Below, piece by piece: positions 7,707 to 33,614 of a stretch of DNA of 64,000 nucleotides. The notes under the pieces were generated by a model, which saw only the letters and a list, made by a program, of their open reading frames with translations, was not told where the DNA came from and made no database searches. Source of the DNA: Vibrio sp. JC009 (lineage in GTDB: Bacteria > Pseudomonadota > Gammaproteobacteria > Enterobacterales > Vibrionaceae); contig NZ_CP092107.1 of NCBI RefSeq assembly GCF_029016485.1, forward strand, positions 806,001 to 870,000, read 5' to 3'. Within the stretch, counting starts at the first letter, position 1. Every line of letters begins with the position of its first letter. A program made the position numbers and the translations under genes.

Positions 7707-7861
7707 TACCAATGCTAAACCAGTTCTAAACCTTCACTGATGAAATTATTGTTAACCTGTTTCCGGCGGAAGTAAGTGGAGCCAAAAACACTGACTATAT
7801 GGAATATTCAACCATAATAGATCAAACAAAAGAAACTTATGTATTTAAGGGCAGGAGCGCG

Positions 7862-8323: not shown

Positions 8324-8864
8324 ACTTGTTGTATGGGGTGCCGTTGTCGTTTTAGCCATCCTCGGGGTTCAGTGGCTTAATAACAACTACACTCTGGCTG
8401 AAATGCGGGAAGTTATCACTGACAATCAGTGGTATGTATTATCCGGTTACGCAGCTCTGATCTCAGTCCGAGGGGTTCTGTTTATCCCGACTATGCCTTT
8501 TATCCTGTTAATGGCGAGTGTTGTCGAGTCCTGGCTGCTATTTAGTGTAACGCTGACTGCGTCCTGCTGTTCTGCTTACCTGGTCTGCCTTGCGGTGGAT
8601 TACCTTGATATCACCAAAAAACTGAACGCTATGCCGGGAAAATCCATTCAGAGAGCTCAGAACTGGGTCAACTCTATGGGAGTGGCAGCCGTCGCCGGCT
8701 GGGCCTTTTTCCCACTGGTATTTACGGAGATTATTGTCTACCTCGCCCGCATCTCAGGGCTAACCAGAAAGCAGGTCATCGTCGCAGTCGCGCTTGGTGA
8801 AGGCCTGCTGATTGGCTTACTTACTTCTTTGACTGAGTGGGTTAGTGGTCTGGTTCAGTACTAA
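8307..8864 (+). CDS. TVP38/TMEM64-like (SNARE-associated, DedA-related) membrane protein
   Basis: Integral membrane protein of 185 residues with about five hydrophobic segments. The central RGVLFIPTMPFILLMASVVE followed by a Gly/Ala-poor helix and the late WAFFPLVFTEIIVYLARISG fit the VTT domain shared by TVP38/TMEM64 and DedA proteins. Relatives take part in lipid scrambling or undecaprenyl-phosphate transport. The exact role here is unknown. The start overlaps the preceding anchored protein by 17 bases. A GlpR gene follows after 112 bases with its own promoter. Confidence 0.75.
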   Translation: MNAIIKLVVWGAVVVLAILGVQWLNNNYTLAEMREVITDNQWYVLSGYAALISVRGVLFIPTMPFILLMASVVESWLLFSVTLTASCCSAYLVCLAVDYLDITKKLNAMPGKSIQRAQNWVNSMGVAAVAGWAFFPLVFTEIIVYLARISGLTRKQVIVAVALGEGLLIGLLTSLTEWVSGLVQY

Positions 8865-8976
8865 TAAGTATCTTTTTTATTTCATAATCACACATTGTTG
8901 TTATTTCACTTATTAGAAAATTGCAAAATCTGGTATAAACTACCCCTTTCGGAGAAGTCGGATCACGGAGCGGATT

Positions 8977-9738: not shown

Positions 9739-9740
9739 CA

Positions 9741-11546: not shown

Positions 11547-11628
11547 CCAACCCTCATCTGCAAATAACTGAGACCTTAATCAAAGTTTAATAGATACCGC
11601 AGAGAAGGTTGGAAATTTTATAAAAATG

Positions 11629-12549
11629 TTAAATAGAGCGAATCCGAAAAGAGGCTTTTTTCAGAAATTTTGCTGCAAAACTATTCATCAGGCTGGCGAC
11701 AATAATCAGAGCAATCCCTGTGATCTGGTAGTTAGAAAAACTTTCATCAAAGAAAGTCAGCTGCCAGACCACAGTAAAAATCAGGTTGGTGTAGATTAGC
11801 GGTGCGACCTGAGAATTACTCTCTGCCAACTGATATGCTTTGGAGCGGAAAATCTGGTTGGACACCACAGCAACCGAAAAGATAAGCATTGAACCCCAGA
11901 TCCATAAATGTTCATCCGGACTTAGCAGCAGACTCTGATCTTCCGGGCTGGTTCCGGTGACAAAAATTAAAGGCACAAGGCATGCCGAGGCAATAATAAA
12001 TGTCCATCCATTCAGAGACATCAGCGCCATATCTCCCTTACTCGCCCTGAACAGGCTCACCTGAGAACCGGCATTAAACAGACCTGCCGCCAGACCCAGC
12101 AAGAGCTCTGGCTTAAGCTGAATGCCCGAAACATCTCCGGCCAGCATTATCACGCCAACAAAGGTGGCAACCAGGCCAAACTTGGTTTCTGTCTTGATCT
12201 GTACCTTAAAAAACAGCTTCTCCAGAACAGGGATAAACAGTGGCCCGGTAGCAAATAACACTACGCCCTCAACCAGTGACAGCACTTCCAGTGACTTCAG
12301 AAAACAGAGCTGGCAACCAACGATACACAGGGCTCTCATCACTATCGGTTTAATTATTGACCGCGCCGGCAGAAACTGTCTGAATGCAACGGCTCCGGTT
12401 AACAGAATAAGTGCTGGGATCAGCAGACGCAGCAACGCCAGCAGCTCGGTACTCATGGTTCCGGACAGTGACTTTGAAAACAGACCTGTTAAAGAAAGGC
12501 TAAAGGTGGAGGCAAGCATATATAGCGTGGCATAAAGGTTCGCTGGCAT
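11629..12549 (-). CDS. EamA/DMT-family transporter
   Basis: Inner-membrane transporter of 306 residues with ten predicted helices in two EamA repeats, starting with MLASTFSLSLTGLFSKSLSG and ending with LIYTNLIFTVVWQLTFFDES and SNYQITGIALIIVASLMNSF. Family members export amino acids, purines or other metabolites. The substrate is not predictable. The upstream region holds a perfect inverted repeat (12633-12649) that could be an operator. Confidence 0.85.
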   Translation of the reverse strand: MPANLYATLYMLASTFSLSLTGLFSKSLSGTMSTELLALLRLLIPALILLTGAVAFRQFLPARSIIKPIVMRALCIVGCQLCFLKSLEVLSLVEGVVLFATGPLFIPVLEKLFFKVQIKTETKFGLVATFVGVIMLAGDVSGIQLKPELLLGLAAGLFNAGSQVSLFRASKGDMALMSLNGWTFIIASACLVPLIFVTGTSPEDQSLLLSPDEHLWIWGSMLIFSVAVVSNQIFRSKAYQLAESNSQVAPLIYTNLIFTVVWQLTFFDESFSNYQITGIALIIVASLMNSFAAKFLKKASFRIRSI

Positions 12550-12632
12550 TTTCTTCTCTTAGAATTCATCAGATACAGGGCTATTTTAGTGAATCAGAGA
12601 AAAAGAAAAATCGATTTAAATTAACCAAAAAT

Positions 12633-12649
12633 GTAAGTAAAACTTACAA
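12633..12649. promoter_or_regulatory. Perfect inverted repeat in the eamA promoter region
   Basis: TGTAAGT and ACTTACA flank a 3-base AAA spacer. It lies about 85 bases upstream of the EamA start and about 120 bases before the small Cys-rich gene. The shape is that of a dimeric repressor operator (for example TetR or MarR type), but the regulator is unknown. Confidence 0.45.
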
Positions 12650-12771
12650 ATGCAGAATCTGCCTTGTTTATTATTTTAAAAGCTGCCGACGTTTATTCCC
12701 GAACTGGCTGTTGACCCCTGCAGTCATGCATCGCACAATGTGCGGCCGGAATAAGAGTTAGGAAACCTGTA

Positions 12772-12933
12772 ATGAGAAAATGCTGTGGCAACTGCCGTCA
12801 ATTTGAAAGAAATTCTGGCAAACCTGTTGATATATGCGGTGCCTGGGGAAACCCGACCAAAGCAGACAGAGCCGCCTGCGAATTCTGGATTATGGTAGAG
12901 AAGAAAAACAAAAGAGACAGCTCTGACGCATAA
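12772..12933 (+). CDS. Small cysteine-rich protein, possible metal-binding knuckle
   Basis: A 53-residue product starting at ATG 12772 with a plausible ribosome site (TTAGGAAACC) just upstream. It begins MRKCCGNCRQFER, continues VDICGAWGNPTKADRAACEF and ends in a basic tail. The five cysteines (CC-x2-C, a single Cys in ICGAW, and AACEFW) are spaced as in a small zinc or iron-sulphur binding knuckle. It lacks membrane segments. Codon use and the start signal suggest a real gene; I cannot name the family. Confidence 0.6.
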   Translation: MRKCCGNCRQFERNSGKPVDICGAWGNPTKADRAACEFWIMVEKKNKRDSSDA

Positions 12934-20254: not shown

Positions 20255-20728
20255 TTAAATTTTTTCTTCCTCTGACAAAAAGCCTTCCAGAACATCAACA
20301 ATCAATTGATGGTCTTCTACCTGAGGTAAGCCCGATACCGTAATTGTACCGATAATCCCAACATTACGGACAGCCAGAGGGAAGCTTCCACCAAAAGGTG
20401 CGTACTCTTTCGCATCCACCAGAGAGCCCTGCTCGATGGAGACACCTTTGTTTTTGTAATAGTTGCCAATATACCATGAGCTGTTCTGGTAACGCTCAAC
20501 CACGTTTTTCTTTCTTCTTATCCACTCCGCATTATCAATGCGGGTACCCGGCATGGCATAACTGAACAGGCAAAGGCCGTTCATGGTAATATCAATGGCA
20601 ACCCCAGCCACTTTCTGCTCGGCCGCTTCCTTCAATGCACAGCCCAGCTCCCACGCACGCTCATGGGAAAAATGGGTAAACTGCAGGCGCTTTTCCTGCT
20701 CTAAAATCTGATTCAACAGCTCTTTCAT
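20255..20728 (-). CDS. UPF0303 / DUF336-type (haem-degrading-domain-like) protein
   Basis: A 157-residue soluble protein of the UPF0303 family, which belongs to the GlcG/HbpS-like DUF336 fold. Recognisable parts are the FTHFSHERAWELGCALKEAA region, AGVAIDITMNGLCLFSYAMP, the NAEWIRRKKNVVER helix and YAPFGGSFPLAVRNVGIIGT. The function of this family is unsettled; related proteins bind haem, cobalamin or small aldehydes. It lies between the PTS fusion gene (82 bases upstream) and the Dabb gene (10 bases downstream) on the same strand, so it is probably co-transcribed with a fermentative sugar system. Confidence 0.8.
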   Translation of the reverse strand: MKELLNQILEQEKRLQFTHFSHERAWELGCALKEAAEQKVAGVAIDITMNGLCLFSYAMPGTRIDNAEWIRRKKNVVERYQNSSWYIGNYYKNKGVSIEQGSLVDAKEYAPFGGSFPLAVRNVGIIGTITVSGLPQVEDHQLIVDVLEGFLSEEEKI

Positions 20729-20810: not shown

Positions 20811-23315
20811 TTACAGTTCCAGCTCGGCTTTCAGCATAGTTTCGATCTCTTCTGTTGAGCCTGCGCTCATCAGATTCTGGCGGAACTCTTCGTGCATAAT
20901 GCGACGGGCAAGTTTCGAGAAAATCTTCATATGTTGATCACCGGCAGAGTGTTTATTCAGCGTCAGCATAATAACGAACTGAGCTTCCTCATCTCCCCAC
21001 TGAATCGGTTTCGCTAAACGAGACACACTGATGGTCGATTGCTCAATGTGCTCACTCTTGGTATGAGGAATTGCGAAACCAAAACCAAGTCCCGTAGAGA
21101 ATACGTCTTCACGGGCCCATAAATCGTCGGCTAGTTTAGCCGGGTAGCGGCAACGGCCAGCCAGGAACAGATTGTCAGACAGAGTCTTGATAACCTCTTC
21201 TTTGCTGCGCAGGTCGTTATCCAGAGTAATACACTCCTGAGAGATAAGCGGTGCATCAGACTGATCCATACGGAACTGTGCCAACAGGTGCTCAACTTCC
21301 AGAGAGGTTCTGCAGTCCATCGCCTTGTTCAGAAGCTGACGGCACTCACGGCTGTCCAGCTTAGCGATACGCTCTTTAGTTGCAGGAATGCTTGGCGCAC
21401 TCATACTGATCTCATCCAGACCCAGACCAACCAACAGCGGCAGTACTGAGCCTTTCGCGCCCAGTTCACCACACAGGCCAATCCACTTACCGTGACGGTG
21501 CACTTCACGCACAACGTGGTCAAGCGTTCTCAGGAATGCAGGGTTCAGGCTGTTGTAGTGCTTGGTCACTTTCGCGTTATCACGGTCAACCGCCATCAGG
21601 TACTGAGTCAGGTCGTTACTGCCGATACTGAAGAAGTCGATCTCTTCACAGCACTGGTCAACGATAAATGCCACTGACGGTACTTCCATCATGATGCCCA
21701 GAGGGATTTTCTCATCAAACGGAATATGCTCTGCGCGAAGCTCTTTACGCACTTCAGAAAGCACATCTTTCACCCAAAGGATCTCTTCCAGTGAAGAAAT
21801 CATAGGAATCATAATCTTCAGAGAGCCGTGAGCTGATGCACGAAGGATGCTGCGCAGCTGAGTCTTGAACATATCGAAGAATTCTTCGTAGATACGCACC
21901 GCACGGTAACCCAGGAACGGGTTGTTTTCTGCAGGAATGTTCAGGTAATCCACCGGCTTATCACCACCGATATCGATAGTACGGATAATGATGGATTTGC
22001 CGTCTGCTGCATCCAGAGCCTGACAGAAGATATTGTAAAGCTCATCTTCATCAGGCGCAGAAGTACGGTCCATATACAGCATTTCTGTACGGAACAGACC
22101 GATTGCTTCTGCGCCGTTGCCGAATGCTGCTTTTGCTTCAACCGAGTGCGCGATGTTTGCTGCCACTTCAATCACTCTGCCGTCAGCCGTTACACCGGCT
22201 TCATCACGGAACTTGCTCTGACGGGATTCAATCACATCAGCAACACGCTGCTCCTGCTCATAGTAACGGCGAAGTGGTTCACTGATTTCTGTTGCTACCA
22301 CGCCCAGGTTGCCATCCACCAGAACTTCCAGGTCAAGGCATGCTGTCAGTTTGCTCTCATCAACACCAACCAGAGTCGGAATGGCAAATGAACGGGCCAG
22401 GATAACAGTGTGCGAAGTGCTGCCGCCGTGAGTCAGAATAAGGCCTTTCAGCAGGTTCTTGTCCAGTTCAAGGAACTGGCTTGGCGTCAGGTCATCAGCA
22501 ATACAGATAGTCGGCTGCGTCAGTGTAAGCTGGTTTGAGAATTTCTCTTCACCGTAGATAGCCTGAAGAAGCTGGAAACAGACATCACGGATATCCAGCT
22601 CACGCTCACGCATATAAGCAGAAGCAGACTTTTGTAGCTGCTCACCAAAGTGTTTCGCTGTCGCAATCACGGCATCCGCAGCGCTACGGCCTTCAACCAG
22701 GTTGCTCTCCAAAGTCTGCTTAAATTCGGCATCTTTTACAATAGAGAAGTGAGCGTTCACTACTTCTGCTTCCGTATGACTTGCTGTTTTCAGTTGCAGA
22801 CCAAAGCCCTTAACAAGCAGCTCAAGACCTTTTGCCAGAGACTCCTGCTCCACAGACAACTCACGCTTTTCAGGCAGGTCAGTCAGAGTATCAAAGTTGA
22901 TAGCACCAACGCGCATCAGGCTACCCATACCAAAGCCACCACTTACCGCGTTGCCTCTTACTACCGGAGCTTCCAGGTTAGTAAAGTTACGTGGAAGAGC
23001 AATAAACTCGCCTTCTTCTGTTTCTGCTGTTTCCAGCGGAGAGTCACAGTGAGGGAACTCATTAGTCATAAAGCTTGAGATCTTCTCAAACGCTTTTTCT
23101 TCGTCTTCACCGTCAATAGTGATCAGACATTGGTCACCTAATAAGGTGTCTGTCCCGATAAGAGAAAGCACACTTTTGGCGTTGGCAGAAATGCCGGTAC
23201 GTTCGTTCTGCCATTTGATCTCTGCATCAAATTCATTACACAGAGCTTCTACATGGCTTGCCGGGCGAGCGTGAACACCATTAGGAAGCTCGCATGAGAA
23301 AGAGAAAGTTTTCAT
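20811..23315 (-). CDS. PTS multiphosphoryl transfer protein HPr-EI-EIIA(Fru) (FryA/FrwA-like)
   Basis: An 834-residue cytoplasmic fusion that carries phosphate from phosphoenolpyruvate to a fructose-family EIIB. The HPr domain (1-90) has phosphoacceptor His15 in NGVHARPAS. The enzyme I domain (about 110-680) has swivelling His302 (GGSTSHTVILAR), PEP-binding RTIDIGGDKP and the catalytic loop GLCGELGAKG. The EIIA(Fru) domain (about 690-834) has His751 in FGFAIPHTKSEH. Domain order and length match E. coli FryA (831 residues) and FrwA/PtsA (833). It is transcribed divergently from the EIIC-EIIB-pfl operon, leaving a 509-base shared control region with two CRP-like sites. It provides a dedicated phosphoryl chain independent of the general PTS. 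Confidence 0.92.
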   Translation of the reverse strand: MKTFSFSCELPNGVHARPASHVEALCNEFDAEIKWQNERTGISANAKSVLSLIGTDTLLGDQCLITIDGEDEEKAFEKISSFMTNEFPHCDSPLETAETEEGEFIALPRNFTNLEAPVVRGNAVSGGFGMGSLMRVGAINFDTLTDLPEKRELSVEQESLAKGLELLVKGFGLQLKTASHTEAEVVNAHFSIVKDAEFKQTLESNLVEGRSAADAVIATAKHFGEQLQKSASAYMRERELDIRDVCFQLLQAIYGEEKFSNQLTLTQPTICIADDLTPSQFLELDKNLLKGLILTHGGSTSHTVILARSFAIPTLVGVDESKLTACLDLEVLVDGNLGVVATEISEPLRRYYEQEQRVADVIESRQSKFRDEAGVTADGRVIEVAANIAHSVEAKAAFGNGAEAIGLFRTEMLYMDRTSAPDEDELYNIFCQALDAADGKSIIIRTIDIGGDKPVDYLNIPAENNPFLGYRAVRIYEEFFDMFKTQLRSILRASAHGSLKIMIPMISSLEEILWVKDVLSEVRKELRAEHIPFDEKIPLGIMMEVPSVAFIVDQCCEEIDFFSIGSNDLTQYLMAVDRDNAKVTKHYNSLNPAFLRTLDHVVREVHRHGKWIGLCGELGAKGSVLPLLVGLGLDEISMSAPSIPATKERIAKLDSRECRQLLNKAMDCRTSLEVEHLLAQFRMDQSDAPLISQECITLDNDLRSKEEVIKTLSDNLFLAGRCRYPAKLADDLWAREDVFSTGLGFGFAIPHTKSEHIEQSTISVSRLAKPIQWGDEEAQFVIMLTLNKHSAGDQHMKIFSKLARRIMHEEFRQNLMSAGSTEEIETMLKAELEL

Positions 23316-23464
23316 ATTAATCGGACCTCAGAACTATTTATTCTGTTTATGCCCGGAACATTTTCCGGAGCAGATTTGCTTTTTTACACAATAGATCTTT
23401 GTCTTCCGGGCCACTATGGGACAAACCTTCGTTTTACTGGACATTTGTTAGATTCAACCTTTGG

Positions 23465-23480
23465 TGTGACAGACATCAAA
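23465..23480. promoter_or_regulatory. CRP-like site between the divergent PTS operons (1)
   Basis: TGTGA-CAGACA-TCAAA fits the CRP consensus TGTGA-N6-TCACA in nine of ten core positions. It lies about 150 bases from the HPr-EI-EIIA start. Catabolite control is expected for a PTS sugar locus. Confidence 0.5.
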
Positions 23481-23607
23481 AATCCTATTACTTTTGTGAG
23501 CAATCTCTAATTTAATTCTTAGCAAGAACTCTAAATACGAACATATAACCATGCATATCAATCACTTAAATTACACAAGCTTATAAATAACGATTGACCC
23601 ATATTTT

Positions 23608-23623
23608 TGTGTGGTAGATCACC
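23608..23623. promoter_or_regulatory. CRP-like site between the divergent PTS operons (2)
   Basis: TGTGT-GGTAGA-TCACC keeps eight of ten core positions and also has the TAGA centre of the optimal palindrome. It lies about 200 bases upstream of the EIIC start. The rest of the 23316-23824 region is AT-rich, carries no gene, and must hold promoters in both directions. Confidence 0.5.
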
Positions 23624-23824
23624 TTCTCTTTACGATCTTACAAATATCCAGTAAATAGACGTTTTGTCCTCTAACTACATAGCACATTTACTCACTATAT
23701 TATGAGCACAGCCCGGATAACTGTTTTGGTGATAAGGGCAAAAATTACAAACGCTGCGCAGCGAGTAAACGTGAAAAGATAATTTTATAATTCATTTAAA
23801 CTTCGTGCTCTAAGGAATAAGGTT

Positions 23825-24895
23825 ATGAACGACATCATTTCCATACTTAAAAACACAAGATCGCACCTGATGACAGGTGTATCTCACATGATTCCATTTG
23901 TTGTTGCAGGTGGTATCTTGCTCGCAGCTTCCGTAATGCTTTACGGTGAAGGTGCCGTTCCTGAAGAAGGAACCTGGTTACACGATCTCTTCTTTATCGG
24001 TGTAGCAGGCTTCCAACTGATGGTTCCAATCCTGGCTGCTTATATCGGTTACTCTATCGCTGACCGCTCAGCACTTGCTCCATCTGCAATCGCAGCATTT
24101 ATCGGCGCGAACATGTACAACACTGGCTTCTTCGGCGCAATCTTCGCCGGTCTGCTGGGTGGTATCGTTGTTCACTACCTTAAGAAGATTAAAGTACCTG
24201 CATTTGCACGTTCCATCATGCCAATTTTCGTGATTCCTATCATTGGTACGTTCATTACTGCTGGTGCAATCGTATGGGGTATTGGTGAGCCAATCGGCGC
24301 AGGTACAGCTGCACTGACTGAGTTCCTGAAAGGCATGCAAGACTCAAGCATCGTGGTACTGGCTACTATCATGGGTCTGATGATCGCATTCGATATGGGT
24401 GGTCCGGTAAACAAGGTTGCATACGCTTTCGTAATCCTTTGTGTGGGTGAAGGCATCTACAACGTAGCAGGTATCTCAGCAGTAGCAGTAGCAACGCCTT
24501 CTGTTGGTATGGGTCTGGCTACATTCCTTAATAAGAAACTATACGGCGCAGACGAGCAAGAAGCAGGTCGTGCATCTATCCTGATGGGTACTATGGGTAT
24601 CACTGAAGGTGCAATCCCATTCGCAGCAGCGGATCCACTACGTGTACTACCTTCTATCATGATTGGTACAGCGTGTGGCGCAGTAACAGCAGCACTACTT
24701 GGTGTTAAATGTTTCGCAGCCTGGGGTGGTCTGATTGTACTGCCTGTTGTTGAAGGCCGCTTCAGCTTCATCATCGCTCTGGCTGTTGGTTCTGTAGTAA
24801 CAGCACTTCTGGTTAACTTTCTTAAAGCTCGTCGCAAAGTAGAAGAGCCAAAAGAAGAAAAAGACGATATCGATTTAGACATCAGCATCGGTTAA
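23825..24895 (+). CDS. frwC: PTS fructose-family EIIC permease (FrwC-like)
   Basis: Inner-membrane PTS channel of 356 residues that imports and helps phosphorylate a hexose-like substrate. It opens with the amphipathic helix typical of EIIC(Fru) (ILKNTRSHLMTGVSHMIPFV) followed by about nine hydrophobic segments. The GEPIGAGT loop and the substrate-site motif ITEGAIPFAAADPLRVLPS are clear. Length and sequence are closest to stand-alone EIIC proteins such as FrwC and FryC. It heads the plus-strand operon and needs the EIIB at 24996 and EIIA from the divergent fusion. By synteny the substrate may be an anhydrohexitol, not fructose. Confidence 0.88.
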   Translation: MNDIISILKNTRSHLMTGVSHMIPFVVAGGILLAASVMLYGEGAVPEEGTWLHDLFFIGVAGFQLMVPILAAYIGYSIADRSALAPSAIAAFIGANMYNTGFFGAIFAGLLGGIVVHYLKKIKVPAFARSIMPIFVIPIIGTFITAGAIVWGIGEPIGAGTAALTEFLKGMQDSSIVVLATIMGLMIAFDMGGPVNKVAYAFVILCVGEGIYNVAGISAVAVATPSVGMGLATFLNKKLYGADEQEAGRASILMGTMGITEGAIPFAAADPLRVLPSIMIGTACGAVTAALLGVKCFAAWGGLIVLPVVEGRFSFIIALAVGSVVTALLVNFLKARRKVEEPKEEKDDIDLDISIG

Positions 24896-24995
24896 TCAAA
24901 CAAATCATTATTAAAACACAAACAAACGGGTTATCAGCCACTCCGGCACAGGCTGGTAACCCACCTTATTAGAAATATCTTTGGAGAGTATTATC

Positions 24996-25313
24996 ATGAC
25001 AAATCTAGTAGCAGTAACAGCATGTCCATCAGGCGTAGCACACACTTACATGGCAGCAGAAGCAATCGAAGCAGCAGCAAAGGCAAAAGGCTGGAACTGC
25101 GATGTTGAGACTCAGGGCTCAATCGGCATCGAAAACGAACTGTCTGCAAACGTAATCGCAGCAGCTGACGTTGTTATCCTGACAAAAGACATCGACATCA
25201 AAAACCAGGAGCGCTTTGAAGGCAAAACGGTTATCCGTATCGGCGTAAGCGACGCAGTTAAGCGTGCTGCTGTTGTAATGGATAAGATTGAAGCGCATCT
25301 GGCGTCTGCTTAA
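24996..25313 (+). CDS. frwB: PTS fructose-family EIIB (FrwB-like)
   Basis: A 105-residue cytoplasmic phosphocarrier. The start ATG 24996 gives MTNLVAVTACPSGVAHTYMA, in which the Cys of TACPSGVAHT is the phosphorylation site; the in-frame ATG at 24981 adds an unlikely MESII. A following VETQGSIGIENEL segment is standard in EIIB(Fru). It is 100 bases after EIIC and passes phosphate from the EIIA domain to the sugar in EIIC. A second EIIB lies at 30343. Confidence 0.9.
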   Translation: MTNLVAVTACPSGVAHTYMAAEAIEAAAKAKGWNCDVETQGSIGIENELSANVIAAADVVILTKDIDIKNQERFEGKTVIRIGVSDAVKRAAVVMDKIEAHLASA

Positions 25314-25322
25314 TCCTTTGTT

Positions 25323-25353
25323 CTCCCCCTTTTCAAGGGGGAGCTAGAGGGGG
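25323..25353 (+). repeat. GC-rich hairpin repeat, copy A
   Basis: CTCCCCCTT (25323-25331) and AAGGGGGAG (25335-25343) form a perfect 9-bp hairpin, followed by CTAGAGGGGGT. An inverted relative is at 25408-25440 and a third copy at 51332-51365. It lies ten bases after the EIIB stop, between EIIB and the glycyl radical enzyme gene, where it may limit read-through or stabilise the upstream mRNA. Confidence 0.7.
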
Positions 25354-25407
25354 TAAATCCACCGAAGTAAATCAGTTTTGCATATCTAATTTAAACTACG
25401 GAATTAA

Positions 25408-25440
25408 CCCCTCCCAACCTCCCCTTCAAAAGGGGAGGAG
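25408..25440 (-). repeat. GC-rich hairpin repeat, copy B (inverted)
   Basis: ACCCCTCCCAA leads to CCTCCCCTT (25418-25426) and AAGGGGAGG (25430-25438). Read on the minus strand it parallels copy A, with the hairpin first and the GGGAGGGGT tail second. Copies A and B bracket about 55 bases of AT-rich DNA. Confidence 0.7.
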
Positions 25441-25487
25441 TTAAAATAGCTCAACAACCAATTAGTAACACTCACACGGAGCTTGCC

Positions 25488-27788
25488 ATGAGCACTGCCA
25501 GAATTGAAAAACTAAAATCAGCACTGTTTGCAGCCAAAAGAGAAATATCACTAGAACGCGCGCTGCTTTACACAGAAAGTCACAAACAGACTGAAGGCGA
25601 ACACACGCTAATCCGCCGCGCTAAGGCAACCGCCCATATTTTAGATAAGGTAGCAATCTCCATTCGTGATGACGAATTAGTCGCCGGTAACCGCACCATC
25701 AAACCTCGTGCGGGTATCGTATCCCCTGAGATGGACCCATACTGGATTGACAAAGAGCTGGATATTTTTGAATCCCGCCCACAGGATAAGTTCTACATCT
25801 CAGAAGAAGACAAAAAAGTTTACCGCGAACAGCTGCTGGCATACTGGTCAGAGCGTTCCATGAAAGACTTTATCAATAGCCAGATCCCGGCAGACATCAA
25901 AGAAGCGGTGGCGCAGAAAGTCTTCAGTGTAAACCAGACTGACAAAGGTCAGGGCCACATCATTATCGACTTTGACCGCCTGCTGGACAACGGCCTTGGT
26001 AAACTGACTGATGAGCTGGAAACCCTTAGCCAGTCACAACCAGACAACGAATTTTATCAGTCTGTACTGATCCTGCTTCAGGCTTCAATCCGCCATATCC
26101 GCCGCTATGAAGCGCTGGCAACGGAGATGGCTGCGGCGTGCGATAATGAAACACGTAAAGCTGAACTGGAAAAAATCGCTGCAATATCCAGCAAGATCGC
26201 CACCGAAAAACCAGAAGACTTTATCGAAGCCTGTCAGCTGTTCTGGTACATAAACATCGTTCTTCAGTACGAATCAAACGCAAGCTCGCTGTCACTGGGC
26301 CGCTTTGACCAGTACATGATGCCTTTCTACAACAAATCCATTGAGAAAGGTGAAGATCCGGCATTCCTGAAAGAGTACTTGGAGAGTCTTTGGATCAAAA
26401 CCAACGATATCGTTCTGCTGCGCTCTTCAGGCAGTGCTAAATTCTTCGCAGGCTTCCCGACCGGTTACACCATTTTGCTGGGTGGTCTGACAGAAACAGG
26501 CCAGAGCGCTGTGAACAAGCTGTCTACGCTTTGCCTTGACGCTTACCAGAGCGTACAACTGCCTCAGCCAAACCTGGGCGTTCGCGTAAACGAGTTTATG
26601 GAACGCGAGTTTATGAACAAGACAGCGGAAACTATTCGTCTTGGTACCGGTATCCCGCAAATCTTCAACGACGAGGTTGTGGTTCCAGCCTTCCTGAACC
26701 GTGGCGTTTCTCTGGAAGATGCGCGTGATTACTCGGTTGTAGGCTGTGTTGAACTGTCTATCCCGGGCAAAACCTACGGCCTGCACGATATTGCCATGTT
26801 TAACCTGCTTAAGGTGATGGAACTGGCACTGAAACGCAATAAAGATGCAGAGGGCGTGACTTTTGACGGCCTGATGGAAGAGATCCGCGACGATATCCGC
26901 CACTATGTGAAGCTGATGGTCGATGGTTCAAATATCTGCGATATCGGCCACCGCGACTGGGCTCCGGTTCCGCTGCTGTCGTCCTTTATCAACGACTGTA
27001 TCGATAACGGCAAAGACATAACATACGGCGGCGGCCGCTACAACTTCTCTGGTGTTCAGGGCATTGGTATCGCCAACCTGTCTGATTCACTACATGCACT
27101 AAAGCGTTACGTGTTCGAAGAGAAACGCAGCTCCTTTGCTGAGTTTATCGACGTGATGGACAACAACTTTGAAGTGGAAGGTGGCGATAAGATCCGTGCC
27201 CGCCTGATCAACAAATACGAAAAATACGGCAACGACATCGACGAAGTGGATGCCCTTGGCTCCGAACTGCTTCGCCTGTTCTGTAAAGAAGTAGAAACCT
27301 ACGATAACCCGCGTGGCGGCAAGTTTACCCCGGGCTCCTACACCGTATCTGCTCACGTACCGTTAGGTGCGGTTGTAGGTGCCACCCCTGACGGTCGCCT
27401 TTCAGGCGAACAACTGGCTGATGGTGGTCTGTCACCAATGCTGGGTAAAGACCATCAGGGTCCGACAGCGGTACTGAAATCTGTCTCTAAACTGGATAAC
27501 TACCTGCTTTCCAACGGCAGCCTGCTGAACGTGAAGTTCACTCCGGCAACGCTGGAAGGGCCACAGGGCCTTGCCAAACTGGGCGACTTCCTGCGCGCCT
27601 TTATGAAGCTGAAGCTTCAGCATGTACAGTTCAACGTACTGAACGCAGATACGCTGCGTAAGGCACAGGAAAAACCTGAAGATTACGCCGGCCTGGTGGT
27701 TCGCGTTGCAGGATACAGTGCCTTCTTTGTAGAGCTGTCTAAGGAAATTCAGGACGACATCATTCGAAGAACTGCCCATGAACTGTAA
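25488..27788 (+). CDS. pflD: PflD/YbiW-type glycyl radical enzyme
   Basis: A 766-residue oxygen-sensitive radical enzyme. The thiyl-radical Cys420 sits in SVVGCVELS with the adjacent Glu of the C-x-E motif, and the glycyl radical Gly742 is in RVAGYSAFF near the C-terminus. Length and sequence fit the E. coli PflD group (765 residues), not pyruvate formate-lyase, which has adjacent catalytic cysteines. E. coli PflD and YbiW have been reported to open the ring of 1,5-anhydromannitol or 1,5-anhydroglucitol 6-phosphate to 1-deoxyfructose 6-phosphate. Gene context (dedicated PTS upstream, Fsa aldolase downstream) supports that reaction here. Which epimer is used cannot be told. The stop codon overlaps the start of the activase gene by 11 bases. 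Confidence 0.9.
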   Translation: MSTARIEKLKSALFAAKREISLERALLYTESHKQTEGEHTLIRRAKATAHILDKVAISIRDDELVAGNRTIKPRAGIVSPEMDPYWIDKELDIFESRPQDKFYISEEDKKVYREQLLAYWSERSMKDFINSQIPADIKEAVAQKVFSVNQTDKGQGHIIIDFDRLLDNGLGKLTDELETLSQSQPDNEFYQSVLILLQASIRHIRRYEALATEMAAACDNETRKAELEKIAAISSKIATEKPEDFIEACQLFWYINIVLQYESNASSLSLGRFDQYMMPFYNKSIEKGEDPAFLKEYLESLWIKTNDIVLLRSSGSAKFFAGFPTGYTILLGGLTETGQSAVNKLSTLCLDAYQSVQLPQPNLGVRVNEFMEREFMNKTAETIRLGTGIPQIFNDEVVVPAFLNRGVSLEDARDYSVVGCVELSIPGKTYGLHDIAMFNLLKVMELALKRNKDAEGVTFDGLMEEIRDDIRHYVKLMVDGSNICDIGHRDWAPVPLLSSFINDCIDNGKDITYGGGRYNFSGVQGIGIANLSDSLHALKRYVFEEKRSSFAEFIDVMDNNFEVEGGDKIRARLINKYEKYGNDIDEVDALGSELLRLFCKEVETYDNPRGGKFTPGSYTVSAHVPLGAVVGATPDGRLSGEQLADGGLSPMLGKDHQGPTAVLKSVSKLDNYLLSNGSLLNVKFTPATLEGPQGLAKLGDFLRAFMKLKLQHVQFNVLNADTLRKAQEKPEDYAGLVVRVAGYSAFFVELSKEIQDDIIRRTAHEL

Positions 27789-28665
27789 TAACACAGAAAA
27801 CCGGATTGATGTTGTGGAGCTGGATGAGGCTGGCAGTGCCTCATCTACCGGGCATGTTTTTAACATCCAGCGCTACTCGCTAAACGATGGTGAAGGGATC
27901 AGAACGGTAGTCTTTTTCAAAGGCTGCCCGCTGAAATGCCCGTGGTGCGCCAACCCGGAGTCACGTTCGCACAAACCACAGAAAGTTCGCCGCGAAGCAA
28001 AATGCATTCACTGTGAAGTGTGCGATATGGATGTGGATGAATGTCCAACCGGCGCGGTAGAGATCCTGGGTCACGATATGACTCTGGATGAGGTAATGAA
28101 AGAGATCGCAAAAGACGATGTCTTCTTCAGAACCTCGGGCGGTGGCATCACCCTTTCCGGTGGTGAAGTGCTGTCCCAGGCTCCGTTTGCTATCCAGTTG
28201 CTGGAAAAGCTGAAAGAGCTGGGTTATCAGACCGCAATAGAGACATCCGGTCAGGGCAGCAATACCCAGCTTCTGAAAATTGGTCAGCTGTGCGATGAAG
28301 TGCTGTTCGATTTCAAAATTATGGATGCGGGGCTGGCTAAAGAGGTCACCGGCATCAACCTGGAGAAGGTACTGGAAGGTTTTACGCTGCTGGTTGAAAA
28401 CGGCGTAAATGTTATCCCGAGACTACCGCTTATTCCGGGTTACACGCTGAATATGGAAAACGTGTACAAGGTGATGAACTTTATCAAGCCATTCGGGCTG
28501 AAAGAGGTTCATATCCTGCCTTTCCATCAGTACGGCGCAAACAAATACGAAACTCTCGGTATGGAATACGAATTTAAAGACGTTACGGTTCCAACTAAAG
28601 ATGAAGTTGCTTCTGTGAAAAACCATATTGAAGCACAAGGCTATAAAGTCATCATTGGAGGTTAA
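27778..28665 (+). CDS. pflC: Glycyl radical enzyme activase (PflC-like radical SAM protein)
   Basis: A 295-residue radical SAM enzyme that installs the glycyl radical on the upstream enzyme using S-adenosylmethionine. The cluster motif is CPLKCPWC (residues about 51-58), with NPES after it as in other activases. An insert with additional ferredoxin-like cysteines (CIHCEVC, ECPTGA) could bind an auxiliary iron-sulphur cluster. Further family motifs are GGGITLSGGEVLSQ and FDFKIMD. The start ATG 27778 overlaps the pflD stop, so translation is coupled. The first 25 residues are longer and less conserved than usual. Confidence 0.9.
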   Translation: MNCNNTENRIDVVELDEAGSASSTGHVFNIQRYSLNDGEGIRTVVFFKGCPLKCPWCANPESRSHKPQKVRREAKCIHCEVCDMDVDECPTGAVEILGHDMTLDEVMKEIAKDDVFFRTSGGGITLSGGEVLSQAPFAIQLLEKLKELGYQTAIETSGQGSNTQLLKIGQLCDEVLFDFKIMDAGLAKEVTGINLEKVLEGFTLLVENGVNVIPRLPLIPGYTLNMENVYKVMNFIKPFGLKEVHILPFHQYGANKYETLGMEYEFKDVTVPTKDEVASVKNHIEAQGYKVIIGG

Positions 28666-28667
28666 TG

Positions 28668-29528
28668 ATGAAAGAAAGAATACTGATCACGGGTGCAAAT
28701 GGCTTTTTCGGAACCCGTTTTATCAACAAATATCAGGACAAGTTTGACATCACGGCAACCGATGTTGAGCAGCTTGATATTACCGACGCCGCTCAGGTTG
28801 ATGCTATGTTCGCAGAAGTTAAGCCGAACTATGTTATTCACGCAGCCGCTATCGCAGTAACGGATTTCTGTAATAAACATCCTGATATTGCCCATAAGGT
28901 GAACGTTCAGGGTGCCATCAATGTTGCAAAAGCGTGTAAGACTGTTGGCGCTAAGCTGGTGTTTATCAGCACAGAGCAGATCTTTAACGGCAACGAAGAG
29001 CCGGGGCCATACACCGAAGCGCACACGCCAAACCCTGACACTATTTATGGTCAGAACAAACTTGAAGCCGAAGGCGAGCTGAAGAGCATTCTTGATGAAA
29101 TGTGGATTCTTCGCTTTACCTGGATGTTTGGTCTGCCTGAACGCAACACCAGCATCAACCCGAACGTTCTGTGGAATACACTTCAGGCTCTGTTTAGCGG
29201 CGAGAAAATGAAAGAGCGCCGTAATGAGTTCCGTGGCCTGACTTATATCCATGAGCTGATCGACCAGTTTGAAAAGATATTCACCATTCCATATGGCACG
29301 TATCACACAGGTGCACACAACCCGGCAAGCCGTTACGAAATTGCTCAGCATATTCTGACCGAAATGGGGCTGGGCTCGCGTTGGGGCGAAGTACTTGAAG
29401 CCAATGATGCACCGAAAACCCGTGATGTTCGCTTAGATACATCAAAACTGGCGGCGCAGGGCGTTGTATTTACCGAAAGTAAGCAGGCTATTTCTAATTG
29501 CCTGAAAGAATTCGGCTTTAAGAAATAA
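28668..29528 (+). CDS. RmlD-like SDR-family oxidoreductase in the pfl operon
   Basis: An NAD(P)-dependent short-chain dehydrogenase/reductase of 286 residues, in the extended SDR group near RmlD/RfbD (dTDP-4-dehydrorhamnose reductase). The Rossmann motif GANGFFG is at residues 9-15 and the catalytic pair is Y127-x3-K131 in IYGQNKLEAE, with a Thr (STEQIF) before it. The start chosen is ATG 28668, six bases after GGAGG; an ATG three bases earlier overlaps the pflC stop. No rhamnose genes are nearby. Its place between pflC and fsa suggests a step of the same pathway: either reduction of the hydroxyacetone left by Fsa, as GldA does in E. coli, or interconversion of the sugar before cleavage. Both are inference. 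Confidence 0.82.
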   Translation: MKERILITGANGFFGTRFINKYQDKFDITATDVEQLDITDAAQVDAMFAEVKPNYVIHAAAIAVTDFCNKHPDIAHKVNVQGAINVAKACKTVGAKLVFISTEQIFNGNEEPGPYTEAHTPNPDTIYGQNKLEAEGELKSILDEMWILRFTWMFGLPERNTSINPNVLWNTLQALFSGEKMKERRNEFRGLTYIHELIDQFEKIFTIPYGTYHTGAHNPASRYEIAQHILTEMGLGSRWGEVLEANDAPKTRDVRLDTSKLAAQGVVFTESKQAISNCLKEFGFKK

Positions 29529-29554
29529 TTTACAGATTTAGTGGAGACTCCCTC

Positions 29555-30235
29555 ATGATTTACTTTTTAGATACAGCTAACCTTGACGCAATCCGCAAAG
29601 CCGTTGACCTATACCCGCTGGATGGCGTAACAACCAACCCGTCTATCGTGGCTAAAGAGAACAAGCCGCTTAAAGAGATAATGCTAAGCATTCGCGAGAT
29701 CATCGGTAAAGAGCGCCTTCTGCATGTTCAGGTGATGGGCAAGACAGCAGAGATCATGCTTCAGGAAGCAGAAGCGATGCGTGCAATTGACCCTGACCTG
29801 TATATCAAGGTTCCGGTAACCCCACAGGGCATCAAGGCGATGAAGCTGATGTCTGAGAAAAATATCCCGATTACCGCAACGGCAATCCTGACTCCTCAGC
29901 AGGCGCTGATGGCAGCAAAAGCAGGTGCTGAGTACCTGGCACCTTACGTAAACCGTCTGGATAACATCTGCGGCGATGGCGTTCAGGTAGTGGCTGAAAT
30001 TGCTCACCTTCTGGAAGTACATAATCTGGAGAATGCAAAAGTGCTGGCAGCATCATTTAAGAATGTTCAGCAGGTTCATGAAGTGGCAAGAGCCGGCAGC
30101 AAGTCTGTGACTATTGCACCGGACGTATTCGATCTTCTGCTTAACCACCCGCTGACAGACTCTGGCGTTGCAGGCTTTGTTGCAGACTGGGAATCTGTTT
30201 ACGGTGAAGGCACAAACGTGCTGGATGTGCTGTAA
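29555..30235 (+). CDS. fsa: Fructose-6-phosphate aldolase-type transaldolase (FsaA/FsaB/MipB)
   Basis: A 226-residue class I aldolase of the small transaldolase family. The Schiff-base lysine is Lys85 in LYIKVPVTPQG, the same position as in E. coli FsaA. DGVTTNPSIVA, LAPYVNRLDN and VLAASFKNVQQ are also family motifs. Fsa enzymes split fructose 6-phosphate poorly and use dihydroxyacetone or hydroxyacetone well. In E. coli they have been assigned the cleavage of 1-deoxyfructose 6-phosphate to glyceraldehyde 3-phosphate and hydroxyacetone, downstream of PflD/YbiW. It follows the SDR by 26 bases and is followed by a strong terminator. Confidence 0.92.
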   Translation: MIYFLDTANLDAIRKAVDLYPLDGVTTNPSIVAKENKPLKEIMLSIREIIGKERLLHVQVMGKTAEIMLQEAEAMRAIDPDLYIKVPVTPQGIKAMKLMSEKNIPITATAILTPQQALMAAKAGAEYLAPYVNRLDNICGDGVQVVAEIAHLLEVHNLENAKVLAASFKNVQQVHEVARAGSKSVTIAPDVFDLLLNHPLTDSGVAGFVADWESVYGEGTNVLDVL

Positions 30236-30291
30236 TCCACAAAATTGCTGAATTAAACGGTTAATTTAAAAGCAAATAAAACAACATACGC

Positions 30292-30330
30292 AAAAATAGA
30301 GATATACTTTAGGGGTATATCTCTATTTTT
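30292..30330. terminator. Long bidirectional terminator between fsa and the second EIIB
   Basis: A 16-bp perfect stem (AAAAATAGAGATATAC at 30292-30307, its complement at 30315-30330) with a 7-base loop ends in a T tract on either strand. It sits 56 bases past the fsa stop and only 12 bases before the ATG of the next EIIB gene, so that gene is either expressed by partial read-through or from its own promoter overlapping the hairpin. Confidence 0.85.
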
Positions 30331-30342
30331 TATGGGAAAAGA

Positions 30343-30678
30343 ATGAAAATCGTCGCAGTTACAGCATGCATCAGCGGAGTAGCACACACTTACATGGCTG
30401 CCGAGCTGATTGAAAAATTCTGCCAGAAAAAAGGCATCAATATTGTTGTTGAAACCCAGGGTGCATTAGGGCTGGAAAACGAGCTTTCTCAGCAGAAAAT
30501 CGATGAAGCGGATGTTGCGATTATTGTTGCAGATATCACCATAGAAAAATCAGAGCGTTTTGACAGCACCCGCCAGATAAAAAGTTATATTTCCGATTTT
30601 CTCAGACAACCGGAAGCTGTATTTGATGCACTGGACAAAGCATATAACTCACCACCGAATACGATTATTGAAGTTTAG
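30343..30678 (+). CDS. frwD: PTS fructose-family EIIB, second copy (FrwD-like)
   Basis: A 111-residue EIIB beginning MKIVAVTACISGVAHTYMAA, with phosphorylated Cys in TACISGVAHT, and LGLENELSQQKIDEADVAII behind it. It is clearly diverged from the EIIB at 24996, like E. coli FrwD against FrwB, which likewise sits at the far end of the frw-pfl gene run. GGGAAAAG before the ATG serves as ribosome site. It may serve the same EIIC or have a regulatory function. Confidence 0.85.
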   Translation: MKIVAVTACISGVAHTYMAAELIEKFCQKKGINIVVETQGALGLENELSQQKIDEADVAIIVADITIEKSERFDSTRQIKSYISDFLRQPEAVFDALDKAYNSPPNTIIEV

Positions 30679-30721: not shown

Positions 30722-31483
30722 CTAACCGACTAACCCTAATACCTGATATGTGTCACTACCGTAGTGATCGAAAAGCATGAGAGGAAAACCACTGATTACA
30801 GCCACTTGGTCATGTGGTCGATGTTTCTCCATTTGCTTCTCAAACAGCTCTACCATACAAATTGGCGATGTTGGTAGATCCAAAACATCAGTGAGCAAGC
30901 AGTTTGCTCTTGATAAGTGCTGTTTGGCAATGCTACCCCAGGAATCTTGAGTGTATAAACCCCAGTTGAGAAACCGCTTGTCCATTTCTGGTGCTGCATT
31001 TACCCACTTCTTGTAGTTAGTAAGATCTGTCGTCTTGTGAGTAAGGTATTCAACTTCGTTACCTTTTTGGTGGCGAATAGCCTCTACCATTGGGTAGCTT
31101 ACACACAACAGACCTTTATCTTGAGCATTATTAAATAGTTCAACCATTTGACGGATTTTGTCATCGTCAGCATTAGAGCAGTGACAGTCGTAGTCGAAGA
31201 ACAGATATATTTCACTTATCTTTTCTGGATCTTCTATTTTCATAACCGCTAGGTCATCATCTGTTGGGTTTACCTTATTTTCTAGCTGTTCGTAAATGAA
31301 TTCGTACGTATCAAAATATTCATCTTTTGTTATCTCACTGAACAACTTATAGACATTCATGCCGTAAGTAGTTTGAACTACGAGCTTGTTGTCTCTATCG
31401 AGTATTGTTTTCCTTAAATTCCGTGCAATGTTAGGCTCTGCTCCTGCTCCTTCAAAAACAAATAAGACATTGCTACTCATCAA
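30722..31483 (-). CDS. RloB/TOPRIM-like protein paired with an ATPase (putative defence effector)
   Basis: A 253-residue protein I recognise only at motif level. The N-terminus has LFVFEGAGAEPNI, a strand ending in Glu followed by EPN, as in RloB and other TOPRIM-type nucleases. The acidic D-x-D strand is IYLFFDYDCH. SYPMVEAIRH matches the third conserved region of RloB (xNPxxEx). It is encoded directly after the ATPase on the same strand, overlapping it by 11 bases. Such ATPase plus TOPRIM/RloB pairs (AbiL, RloAB, PARIS-like) are anti-phage systems. Function inferred, not shown. The two genes look more AT-rich than their neighbours. Confidence 0.6.
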   Translation of the reverse strand: MMSSNVLFVFEGAGAEPNIARNLRKTILDRDNKLVVQTTYGMNVYKLFSEITKDEYFDTYEFIYEQLENKVNPTDDDLAVMKIEDPEKISEIYLFFDYDCHCSNADDDKIRQMVELFNNAQDKGLLCVSYPMVEAIRHQKGNEVEYLTHKTTDLTNYKKWVNAAPEMDKRFLNWGLYTQDSWGSIAKQHLSRANCLLTDVLDLPTSPICMVELFEKQMEKHRPHDQVAVISGFPLMLFDHYGSDTYQVLGLVG

Positions 31484-32591
31484 ATGCTCCTGCGCGGTAC
31501 ATTTTCTCTAGGTTGTGTGCTTTGCGTAGCTCCCTATCGGTTAGTTTGTATAGAGGCTTCAAAGAATTCTGATCTAGGATGTAATAGCAATCAGGGCGGA
31601 GCACATGGTTAGAGAGCAGAGTGCTGTTATGAGTAGTGATGATCGACTGGCACGATGTTTTAGACACTAGTTTCACTATGCGTTTAGAAAGGGCAAAGTG
31701 ATAGTAGGCGTCGAACTCATCAATGTAAGCGAAGGTGATTTCTTCATTCAGCATTTTAAGATACCAGTAGTAGAAATTGCCAAGCGATACAGTACCAGTA
31801 GAAGCAATCTGTGAAAACTCGATGCTTTTGTTACCAAAATCGAATTCGATTTGCTCCTTACCTGCATCACCAGTCTGAATTAGCTTACACTCAACACCTG
31901 ATTCATTGAGGAAGGCTTCAAAATCTTCTAGTTTATCTTGCTCAATAATGCGCTGTGAAATTCGTTTTGTTTCTAGAGGTTTACCGTGAAACTCTGTTGT
32001 TTTGGTTAGCGTACGGAAAAATACCATCCCTTCGACAAATTTGATGAACTGGAAAAAAGCCGCAGATTCTTTATTTGGTTCGAGCAGCGCATTTGATTCA
32101 AGGAATTTAATGGGTGATATTTTACGACCTGTGAAATCATTCTTTAGGTGCTCTGCACCAACAAGGTTATAGGAAGCAAGCGCAGATTTTCTACGGTCAA
32201 TACTAACGACTTTGTTTTCTTCAATATAGAGCTCTTCGAATACGGTTTCAGCACAGTTTTCTTTACCGTAGTGGTAGACAACTTCTACACCATCGAACTC
32301 AAACCTGTATGTAAACTCTGCGAGTGAATCTTCATCCATGCTAGCGTTTAAGTAATTAAGGTGCAGTGACGGAATGATGTTAGGGCTATCTAGTAGGTGA
32401 CACGTCAGGTCAAGAACCGCCAATCCAAGGTTCGATTTACCCACACCGTTACCACCGTACATTACAGCGCTGCTTACAACACCATTTTCTACAGCGTGTG
32501 AGTTAAATTCATATGATTTATCAGTGCGTAGGTTTATCTCAAACTCTTCGCCGAAGTTACGGAAACCTCTAACCTTTAGACTACATAGCAT
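31473..32591 (-). CDS. AAA ATPase of the OLD/RloA/AbiLi type
   Basis: A 372-residue ATPase with an SMC/ABC-like head. It begins MLCSLKVRGFRNFGEEFEIN, the usual opening strand of OLD-type ATPases. Walker A is GGNGVGKSN, the signature-like segment is STGTVSLGNFYYWYLK, Walker B is FAYIDEFDAYYH, and the final switch is IITTHNSTLLSN. It lacks its own TOPRIM domain; the nuclease-like part is the separate downstream gene. The pair occupies the space between the last PTS gene and the AraC regulator, which are neighbours in E. coli (frwD, yijO), so it looks like an insertion. No integrase or repeats mark its ends. Confidence 0.75.
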   Translation of the reverse strand: MLCSLKVRGFRNFGEEFEINLRTDKSYEFNSHAVENGVVSSAVMYGGNGVGKSNLGLAVLDLTCHLLDSPNIIPSLHLNYLNASMDEDSLAEFTYRFEFDGVEVVYHYGKENCAETVFEELYIEENKVVSIDRRKSALASYNLVGAEHLKNDFTGRKISPIKFLESNALLEPNKESAAFFQFIKFVEGMVFFRTLTKTTEFHGKPLETKRISQRIIEQDKLEDFEAFLNESGVECKLIQTGDAGKEQIEFDFGNKSIEFSQIASTGTVSLGNFYYWYLKMLNEEITFAYIDEFDAYYHFALSKRIVKLVSKTSCQSIITTHNSTLLSNHVLRPDCYYILDQNSLKPLYKLTDRELRKAHNLEKMYRAGAFDE

Positions 32592-32750: not shown

Positions 32751-33614
32751 CTAGCTATGGCTCCTATACTGAGTCCTGTATTCCGAAGGTGATCTCGCAG
32801 TCTGATTGCGGAATACGCGACAGAAGTAATTACTGTCACTGAACCCGCAGCGGTGCGCCACCTCTTTTACCTTCATATCGTATTCTTTAAGCAGATATTT
32901 TGCCCTCTCAAGCCTGATATGGTTCAGATGTTCGTTAAACTTGATCTTCCCTTCTTTCTGAAAGAGCTGAGAAAGATAATTCGGAGAGACATAAAAGTGC
33001 TCAGCCACAGATTCTCTGGTCAGCGGCTCGTGATAGTTCTGCTCAATATAGTCGCGCACGGCTTCAAACAGCGCCTTGCTCCGGGAAGGAGTTTCAGGCG
33101 GGTTAAGCATTAAATCGTTAATATGGCTGAGCAGTGAAGCGATCAACAACTTGGCGGTATGCTGATCGCCAGCGTGCCAGCGAAGCTCTTCCAGTGACTG
33201 CAGAATAAAAGTACCGGTTCTTGGTCCCCTTCGCTGAATATTGTCTTTTAGCAGGGTTTCAAAGGATTCACCATTCCACCTGAGAAGACTGATACCAAAA
33301 CTCTGCTTACCCACCAGCACATTTAGCATGGTTACCGGCTTATCCCAATGCGGTTTATTCCAGCAATCGGCCGGAACATACAGAGCATCGCCACCTTTCA
33401 GTTCATGCTGTGCTTCCTGCCCGATATCGGTGCCCACTTCCATCACAGATTCACCCTCTACCACAATTTCAAGGCGCGGAAAGTGCACCTGATAAGCCAG
33501 TTCGGGAGGCTCAGGGAGGTTACTGGCAAAATAAACCCTGCCCAGATTTGCAGGAGAATTTGAGTAATCAAAAAGCAGTTTTTCCAGGAAACTTTCCGGG
33601 GTACCTGTATTCAT
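32751..33614 (-). CDS. AraC-family regulator (YijO-like by position)
   Basis: A 287-residue transcription factor: an N-terminal cupin-like sensing domain (about 30-160, including FPRLEIVVEGESVMEVG and GGDALYVPADCW) and a C-terminal double helix-turn-helix (ESVAEHFYVSPNYLSQLFQK, then VKEVAHRCGFSDSNYFCRVF). E. coli has the AraC-type gene yijO beside frwD, and this gene holds the same relative place once the ATPase pair is ignored. It is also divergent from the GH13 gene at 33815, so either the PTS/pfl locus or the glycosidase could be its target. Confidence 0.85.
   Translation of the reverse strand: MNTGTPESFLEKLLFDYSNSPANLGRVYFASNLPEPPELAYQVHFPRLEIVVEGESVMEVGTDIGQEAQHELKGGDALYVPADCWNKPHWDKPVTMLNVLVGKQSFGISLLRWNGESFETLLKDNIQRRGPRTGTFILQSLEELRWHAGDQHTAKLLIASLLSHINDLMLNPPETPSRSKALFEAVRDYIEQNYHEPLTRESVAEHFYVSPNYLSQLFQKEGKIKFNEHLNHIRLERAKYLLKEYDMKVKEVAHRCGFSDSNYFCRVFRNQTARSPSEYRTQYRSHS

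Follow-up and report, generated by a model that had tools for sequence, protein, structure and literature searches.

In Escherichia coli, the glycyl radical enzyme PflD acts on 1,5-anhydromannitol 6-phosphate (AM6P) and YbiW on 1,5-anhydroglucitol 6-phosphate, according to PMC12441222, which cites Ma et al. 2024 and describes the radical route for gut bacteria. The PflD branch of this anhydroglycolysis is encoded in one locus with PtsA, FrwC, FrwB, PflD, PflC, FrwD and a YijO-type regulator, and gldA and fsaB lie beside ptsA. We analyzed a locus of this kind at positions 20811 to 30678 of a 64,000-nucleotide stretch of Vibrio sp. JC009 (referred to here as the window; NZ_CP092107.1, positions 806,001 to 870,000), which belongs to contig 2 of a three-contig, 5.2-Mb genome. 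The window has genes for the first seven of these products in nearly the same order. It differs from the E. coli locus in that a gene for a short-chain dehydrogenase/reductase (SDR) and an fsa gene stand between pflC and frwD, whereas E. coli has no SDR there.

Two further systems are close to this locus. Plasmid pTHAF190c_b of Vibrio sp. THAF190c (NZ_CP045340.1; 518 kb) shows, by annotation and position, the same order: hbpS, ptsA, frwC, frwB, pflD, pflC, SDR, fsa, frwD and araC. It differs in being plasmid-borne and in carrying extra genes for PfkB, a SIS-domain protein, a Gfo/Idh/MocA oxidoreductase, a PhyH-family protein and ManA; in the public annotation the full extended cassette lies within 501482-518670 (L210). 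In Sinorhizobium morelense, anhydrofructose is reported to be reduced to anhydromannitol, which is hydroxylated at C1 to mannose, the chemistry that we propose below, on the phosphates, for the SDR and PhyH. The portions of PMC12441222 that describe this pathway call the C1 hydroxylase P450-like and mention no phosphotransferase system, which sets it apart from the present locus.

We consider the following overall explanation likely. The Frw phosphotransferase chain would bring in a 1,5-anhydrohexitol as the 6-phosphate. PflC would put a glycyl radical into PflD, which would open the ring of AM6P to give 1-deoxyfructose 6-phosphate, and Fsa would cleave this product to glyceraldehyde 3-phosphate and hydroxyacetone. 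GldA, encoded elsewhere in the genome, would reduce the hydroxyacetone. The SDR would act upstream of PflD, either by converting 1,5-anhydrofructose 6-phosphate to AM6P or by C2 epimerization of anhydroglucitol 6-phosphate via that ketone, and an AraC-type protein and CRP would control the locus. We infer the import, PflD, Fsa and GldA steps from orthology to E. coli.

The locus is laid out divergently, with ptsA on the minus strand (20811..23315) and, on the plus strand, frwC (23825..24895), frwB (24981..25313), pflD (25488..27788), pflC (27778..28665), the SDR gene (28665..29528), fsa (29555..30235) and frwD (30343..30678). The original prediction, made from the DNA letters, had named seven of these genes, and all seven are open reading frames with the expected domains. 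It had assigned them to the E. coli frw/pfl/fsa set; phmmer, the NF007437 model and a tree bear this out, and the assignment falls short in that the locus has a further constant member, the SDR. The SDR gene was absent from that prediction, as were an HbpS-like gene and an AraC/YijO-type regulator gene described below. PtsA is an HPr-EI-EIIA fusion by its Pfam domains. The Frw EIIC and EIIB proteins exceed the cut-offs of the equivalog models of the Frw phosphotransferase (FrwC, NF007787, 570.9 bits versus 426; FrwB, which probably starts at an internal ATG, NF007783, 173.4 versus 135), while the second EIIB, FrwD, recognized by its domains, scores below its own (132.2 versus 153). The activase PflC, a radical S-adenosylmethionine enzyme, scores 437.3 bits against NF007483 (cut-off, 326). 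Identities to the E. coli proteins are 66% for PtsA, 65% for FrwC, 73% for FrwB, 50% for FrwD and 54% for PflC, and the match to the E. coli protein set, as judged by sequence comparison, is far above chance. The core locus is orthologous to the published pathway, probably with AM6P as the substrate. The cargo and specificity of the Frw transporter are presumed by analogy with E. coli.

The central enzyme is very probably of the PflD type, which by orthology would make AM6P its substrate. Its identity to E. coli PflD is 73.7%, versus 36% to YbiW, which argues against a YbiW-type enzyme acting on anhydroglucitol 6-phosphate. In phmmer searches it scored 1286 bits with E. coli PflD (8yjo), 1016 with 8id0, 659 with glycerol dehydratase and 453 with YbiW, and it scored 1473.1 bits against NF007437 (cut-off, 1109). 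The tree that we built has 52 rows: the 43 of 51 glycyl radical enzymes in the fetched loci that exceed 700 residues, and 9 reference or own rows. The other enzyme classes in it sit on long branches. PflD fell within a 20-row clade that holds E. coli PflD (support, 100/99), apart from YbiW; its closest row was that of Vibrio hannami (91%). YbiW itself grouped with a row from this genome (L005) and one Photobacterium row (100/100). Clustering with a different glycyl radical class had been named beforehand as refuting the assignment; we looked for it and did not see it. Choline lyase, HypD and sulfopropanediol dehydratase were rejected as identities, the scores all being under the NCBIfam cut-offs (506.1/1050, 524.5/1100 and 580/1000, respectively). 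The catalytic residues claimed in the original prediction are all in place: Cys420 and Glu422 in a GCVE motif, Gly742 in RVAGY, CPLKCPWC in PflC and Lys85 in Fsa.

Fsa, a predicted 1-deoxyfructose 6-phosphate aldolase by domains and residues, is 42% identical to FsaA and 40% to FsaB. It scored 218.9 bits against NF009299 (cut-off, 214), 227.3 against TIGR00875 (245.95) and 234.5 against NF009296 (306). Besides Lys85, Fsa shares Asp6, Asn28, Gln59, Thr109, Tyr131 and Arg134 with FsaA; these residues have catalytic roles, Lys85, Tyr131 and Gln59 among them. GldA had been expected outside the locus, and we found it at position 712280 of contig 2 (61% to E. coli GldA). The genome encodes seven enzymes resembling pyruvate formate-lyase (PFL), namely PflD, a YbiW ortholog of the anhydroglucitol 6-phosphate type (a separate gene at 1833609 of contig 2; 71% to YbiW), CutC, sulfopropanediol dehydratase, two PFLs and an unnamed one. 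The last, L007 (C1:837318-838868; 806 aa), matched no NCBIfam model at E 1e-150.

The SDR is a constant companion of PflD in this genus. We surveyed 196 Vibrio genomes, counting PflD as close at 79% identity or more and the SDR at 69% or more. Close PflD occurred in 19 genomes and the SDR in 20; all 19 PflD-bearing genomes carry the SDR, which adjoins pflC in every one (19/19). The association has a Fisher p of 1.7e-25, which is not a probability from independent trials since the genomes are related. The twentieth SDR genome is that of Vibrio hepatarius (G067), which is without pflD. In some assemblies pflD (G037, G059 and G169) or pflC (G039) is in pieces (L062, L074, L075 and L076), by decay or assembly error, and the SDRs of G035 and G166 each have one internal stop, at the C-terminal end in G166. 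None of 20,395 E. coli records matched the SDR gene by blastn, which reaches to about 65 to 70% DNA identity.

We examined the neighbours of the SDR in the best 80 of 136 relatives, in which some flanks end at contig ends. Where the SDR is at least 65% identical (21 loci, from Vibrio, Photobacterium, Pseudovibrio and Hahella), a glycyl radical enzyme was present in 20/21 and FrwC in 21/21. At 44 to 65% identity (44 loci, mostly from Firmicutes and spirochaetes), a glycyl radical enzyme lay within the fetched flanks of 25, FrwC-like proteins in 8, Fsa in 12, HbpS-like proteins in 12 and a Gfo/Idh/MocA oxidoreductase in 9. Among the 15 loci with a more distant SDR, one had a glycyl radical enzyme. 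The tie between the two is near-strict in the 21 closest loci, common in the 44 and nearly absent further out. In the Firmicute loci L101-L120, the SDR occurs with an HbpS-like gene, a DeoR regulator, a HAD phosphatase or a Gfo/Idh/MocA oxidoreductase, and in several of them no glycyl radical enzyme was visible.

An AlphaFold2 model of the SDR (mean pLDDT, 94.7) has an RmlD-like fold. The best PDB match was RmlD (dTDP-4-dehydrorhamnose reductase) of Trichomonas vaginalis at about 30% identity, and Foldseek TM-scores were about 0.8 to 0.9. The SDR shares with RmlD the fold and the catalytic Tyr and Lys; Ser102, Tyr128 and Lys132 are invariant in 51/51 sequences. It differs in scoring under the RmlD cut-off (TIGR01214, 151.2 versus 224.05 bits; 159.4 for the V. 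hepatarius SDR) and in a Glu-Gln pair at 104-105, also invariant in 51/51. The solved 1,5-anhydrofructose reductase 2glx, from S. morelense, belongs to the Gfo/Idh/MocA superfamily and not to the SDRs. A clostridial Gfo/Idh/MocA neighbour of the SDR matched 2glx at 54.7 bits, 14th in its list, and the one in Vibrio resembles YvaA (323.6 bits to 3gdo versus 37.8 to 2glx). We propose tentatively, at somewhat less than an even chance, that the SDR makes AM6P from a 2-keto or C2-epimeric compound upstream of PflD, the direction of the reaction being likewise part of the proposal.

A natural deletion bears on the place of the SDR. In V. hepatarius E3R11 (L077/L096) the order is hbpS-ptsA-frwC-frwB-SDR-frwD-araC-PhyH-manA, and pflD, pflC and fsa are absent from the locus. 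The only glycyl radical enzyme of this genome has PFL length. No Fsa was found in the genome, as its sole member of the transaldolase/Fsa family has transaldolase length. In a tree of PtsA and FrwC covering 27 of 28 loci (L075 was dropped by the length filter), V. hepatarius grouped with Vibrio zhanjiangensis (G032) with support of 100/99, deep among pflD-bearing loci; therefore, the radical genes were probably lost. In V. hepatarius, the SDR thus keeps company with the transporter rather than with what PflD or Fsa would produce.

Relatives carry a second linked enzyme. Beyond araC lies a gene of the PhyH family (PF05721, 77.1 bits versus a cut-off of 22), whose fold model (pLDDT, 94.1) is of the Fe/2-oxoglutarate type, with SptF as the best match. 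The HxD...H iron triad and an arginine (His125, Asp127, His203 and Arg214) are invariant in 54/54 sequences. Among the 196 Vibrio genomes, PhyH was found in 15, all within the 20 that have the SDR (15/20 versus 0/176 without it). It lies by the locus in 14 and elsewhere in G100, where the adjoining AraC-type gene (L182, 9030-11038) is just 28% identical to YijO; the match in G059 is partial, with a stop. At E 1e-30, PhyH was found neither in the genome of the window nor in the locus-bearing genomes G030, G037, G054 and G119. We also surveyed 295 genomes of the family of G409, judged to be Enterobacteriaceae from named homologues, calling PflD at E 1e-250. PflD was present in 45 and PhyH in 9, all 9 among the 45 (0/250 without PflD). 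In 9/9 the PhyH gene adjoins a YijO-type regulator (53 to 57% to YijO), and all nine genomes have FrwC at 82% identity or more, over 299 of 359 residues in G684. The order in G692 is ptsA-frwC-frwB-pflD-pflC-frwD-PhyH-yijO. A survey of the whole order, with PhyH in 2/394 genomes, was too thin to use, and blastn gave no PhyH match in E. coli records. Of the 19 other Vibrio loci, 6 have a gene for mannose-6-phosphate isomerase (ManA) alongside; PhyH accompanies it in 4 of these and is missing from 2 (G030 and G119).

In relatives with oxygen available, PhyH would hydroxylate C1 of AM6P to a hemiacetal, which is mannose 6-phosphate, and ManA would convert this to fructose 6-phosphate for entry into glycolysis. 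We propose two exits from AM6P, chosen by oxygen, because the same C1 hydroxylation chemistry is reported to act on the free sugar in S. morelense. The Vibrionaceae and some Enterobacteriaceae could then have an oxygen-switched catabolism, with one transporter (and the SDR in Vibrionaceae) feeding AM6P to PflD/Fsa or to PhyH/ManA; V. hepatarius would be aerobic-only and the Vibrio of the window anaerobic-only. We hold this wider scheme to be possible and somewhat doubtful.

Several observations count against these proposals. The Vibrio co-occurrence counts ignore shared ancestry, and the loss in V. hepatarius is a single genome. The RmlD-like fold, with its nearest solved relative at about 30% identity, gives no reaction for the SDR, and the presence of YbiW in the same genome lessens the need for an epimerase. 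At 19 of the 44 mid-distance SDR loci no glycyl radical enzyme is visible, and 13 of the 44 lack all of glycyl radical enzyme, FrwC-like protein, Fsa and HbpS, so the SDR family also serves elsewhere. For the oxidative exit, PhyH is missing from five locus-bearing Vibrio genomes and from 36 of the 45 enterobacterial PflD genomes, ManA occurs at two Vibrio loci that lack PhyH, and none of the matches listed for PhyH has a name that implies a sugar phosphate as its substrate.

These points leave room for other explanations, which differ in how well they fit. PhyH may be a mere neighbour under the same regulator, unrelated to AM6P, and the locus-bearing Vibrio genomes that lack it (that of the window and four others), together with the names of its listed matches, would agree with this. 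On the other side stands the co-occurrence in both families, which persists off the locus: in G100, and in 6/9 enterobacterial genomes, where PhyH and pflD are on different contigs. We regard an unrelated PhyH as quite conceivable, though we would not expect it. A transporter and PflD that serve another sugar, such as mannose or another anhydro or deoxy hexitol, to which the linked ManA and PhyH belong, would account for ManA at the six Vibrio loci, two of them without PhyH, and anhydromannitol is ascribed to Frw here from E. coli. This is unlikely given the 73.7% identity to the E. coli PflD, which is reported to act on AM6P (PMC12441222).

It is similarly improbable that the SDR stands in for GldA, reducing the hydroxyacetone made by Fsa (or lactaldehyde) in a locus otherwise like that of E. 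coli. The gene order lends this some appeal, as gldA adjoins fsaB in E. coli and the SDR gene adjoins fsa in the window, with gldA elsewhere. However, gldA and the SDR gene share a neighbourhood in 4/21 close loci, which speaks against plain replacement of GldA by the SDR; V. hepatarius has the SDR and transporter without pflD, pflC and fsa, and hence lacks that source of hydroxyacetone; and the SDR has the fold of sugar-nucleotide reductases. An ordinary second PFL operon has in its favour the database name, formate C-acetyltransferase, and is extremely improbable. PflD reached 124.6 bits against TIGR01255 (cut-off, 994.2), a model whose cut-off is exceeded by the two PFLs of this genome, and its GCVE motif has a single Cys, unlike the Cys pair carried by PFL. 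The preferred explanation remains Frw import followed by the PflD/Fsa/GldA route, with the SDR upstream.

The regulators of the locus are likely CRP and the YijO-type AraC protein (32751..33614, minus strand; 57% to E. coli YijO). A CRP-like site with one mismatch lies between ptsA and frwC (23465..23480, no strand assigned). Sites with at most one mismatch were found in 22 of 27 ptsA-frwC intergenic regions, those of the window and E. coli included, versus an expectation of 0.4 from shuffling single bases. FNR-like sites occurred in 4/27 (shuffles: mean, 1.2; maximum, 4), and scans for sigma-70 promoters and terminators gave no more than in shuffles. The original prediction had the polyol fermented without oxygen; strictly anaerobic use finds no backing here, since the conserved motif is CRP-like and the count of FNR-like sites does not clearly exceed that in shuffles. 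In all but one of the 19 other Vibrio loci (18/19), the YijO-like gene stands next to frwD. In the window it is split off by a candidate anti-phage defence pair, PDC-M12A/PDC-M12B (502.6 and 270.3 bits; 30722-32591).

On the other flank, an HbpS/GlcG-like protein (PF03928, 107.5 bits) is encoded at 20255..20728 on the minus strand. This gene is conserved on the ptsA side in 19/19 other Vibrio loci examined, several with one gene between; in the mid-distance group it stands near the SDR gene. Glucan lyase, suggested earlier as a source of the polyol, finds no support in this genome: its best GH31 match falls in the PRK10426 alpha-glucosidase family (996.3 bits versus a cut-off of 553), near a sulfopropanediol dehydratase, and it has two further, weak GH31 hits at 32.1 and 27.4 bits. 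PRK10426 is the YihQ sulfoquinovosidase family. This GH31 gene, the sulfopropanediol dehydratase gene and a probable activase gene lie together upstream of the window (L078, C2:788000-807000, at 2658-12867), a grouping that suggests sulfosugar breakdown.

Our literature search found no paper on anhydroglycolysis, or on anhydrofructose together with Vibrio, or on anhydromannitol together with a dioxygenase, and phytanoyl-CoA dioxygenase was absent among the literature matches listed. According to PMC12441222, no oxidative pathway for 1,5-anhydroglucitol has been described and the C1 hydroxylase of anhydromannitol has not been identified. A C1 hydroxylation of this kind, on the phosphate, now has a concrete candidate in PhyH. 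The core of the locus is the already known pathway, recognized here in a marine genus; to this we add an SDR that is constantly present and, in relatives, a linked dioxygenase. The radical route, described for gut bacteria, is here seen to be conserved at a locus of marine Vibrio, Photobacterium and Pseudovibrio, once on a plasmid. The constancy of the SDR suggests that bacteria really feed on an anhydro-ketose or an epimer, and the PhyH reading, if true, would mean oxygen-dependent use of a 1,5-anhydrohexitol.

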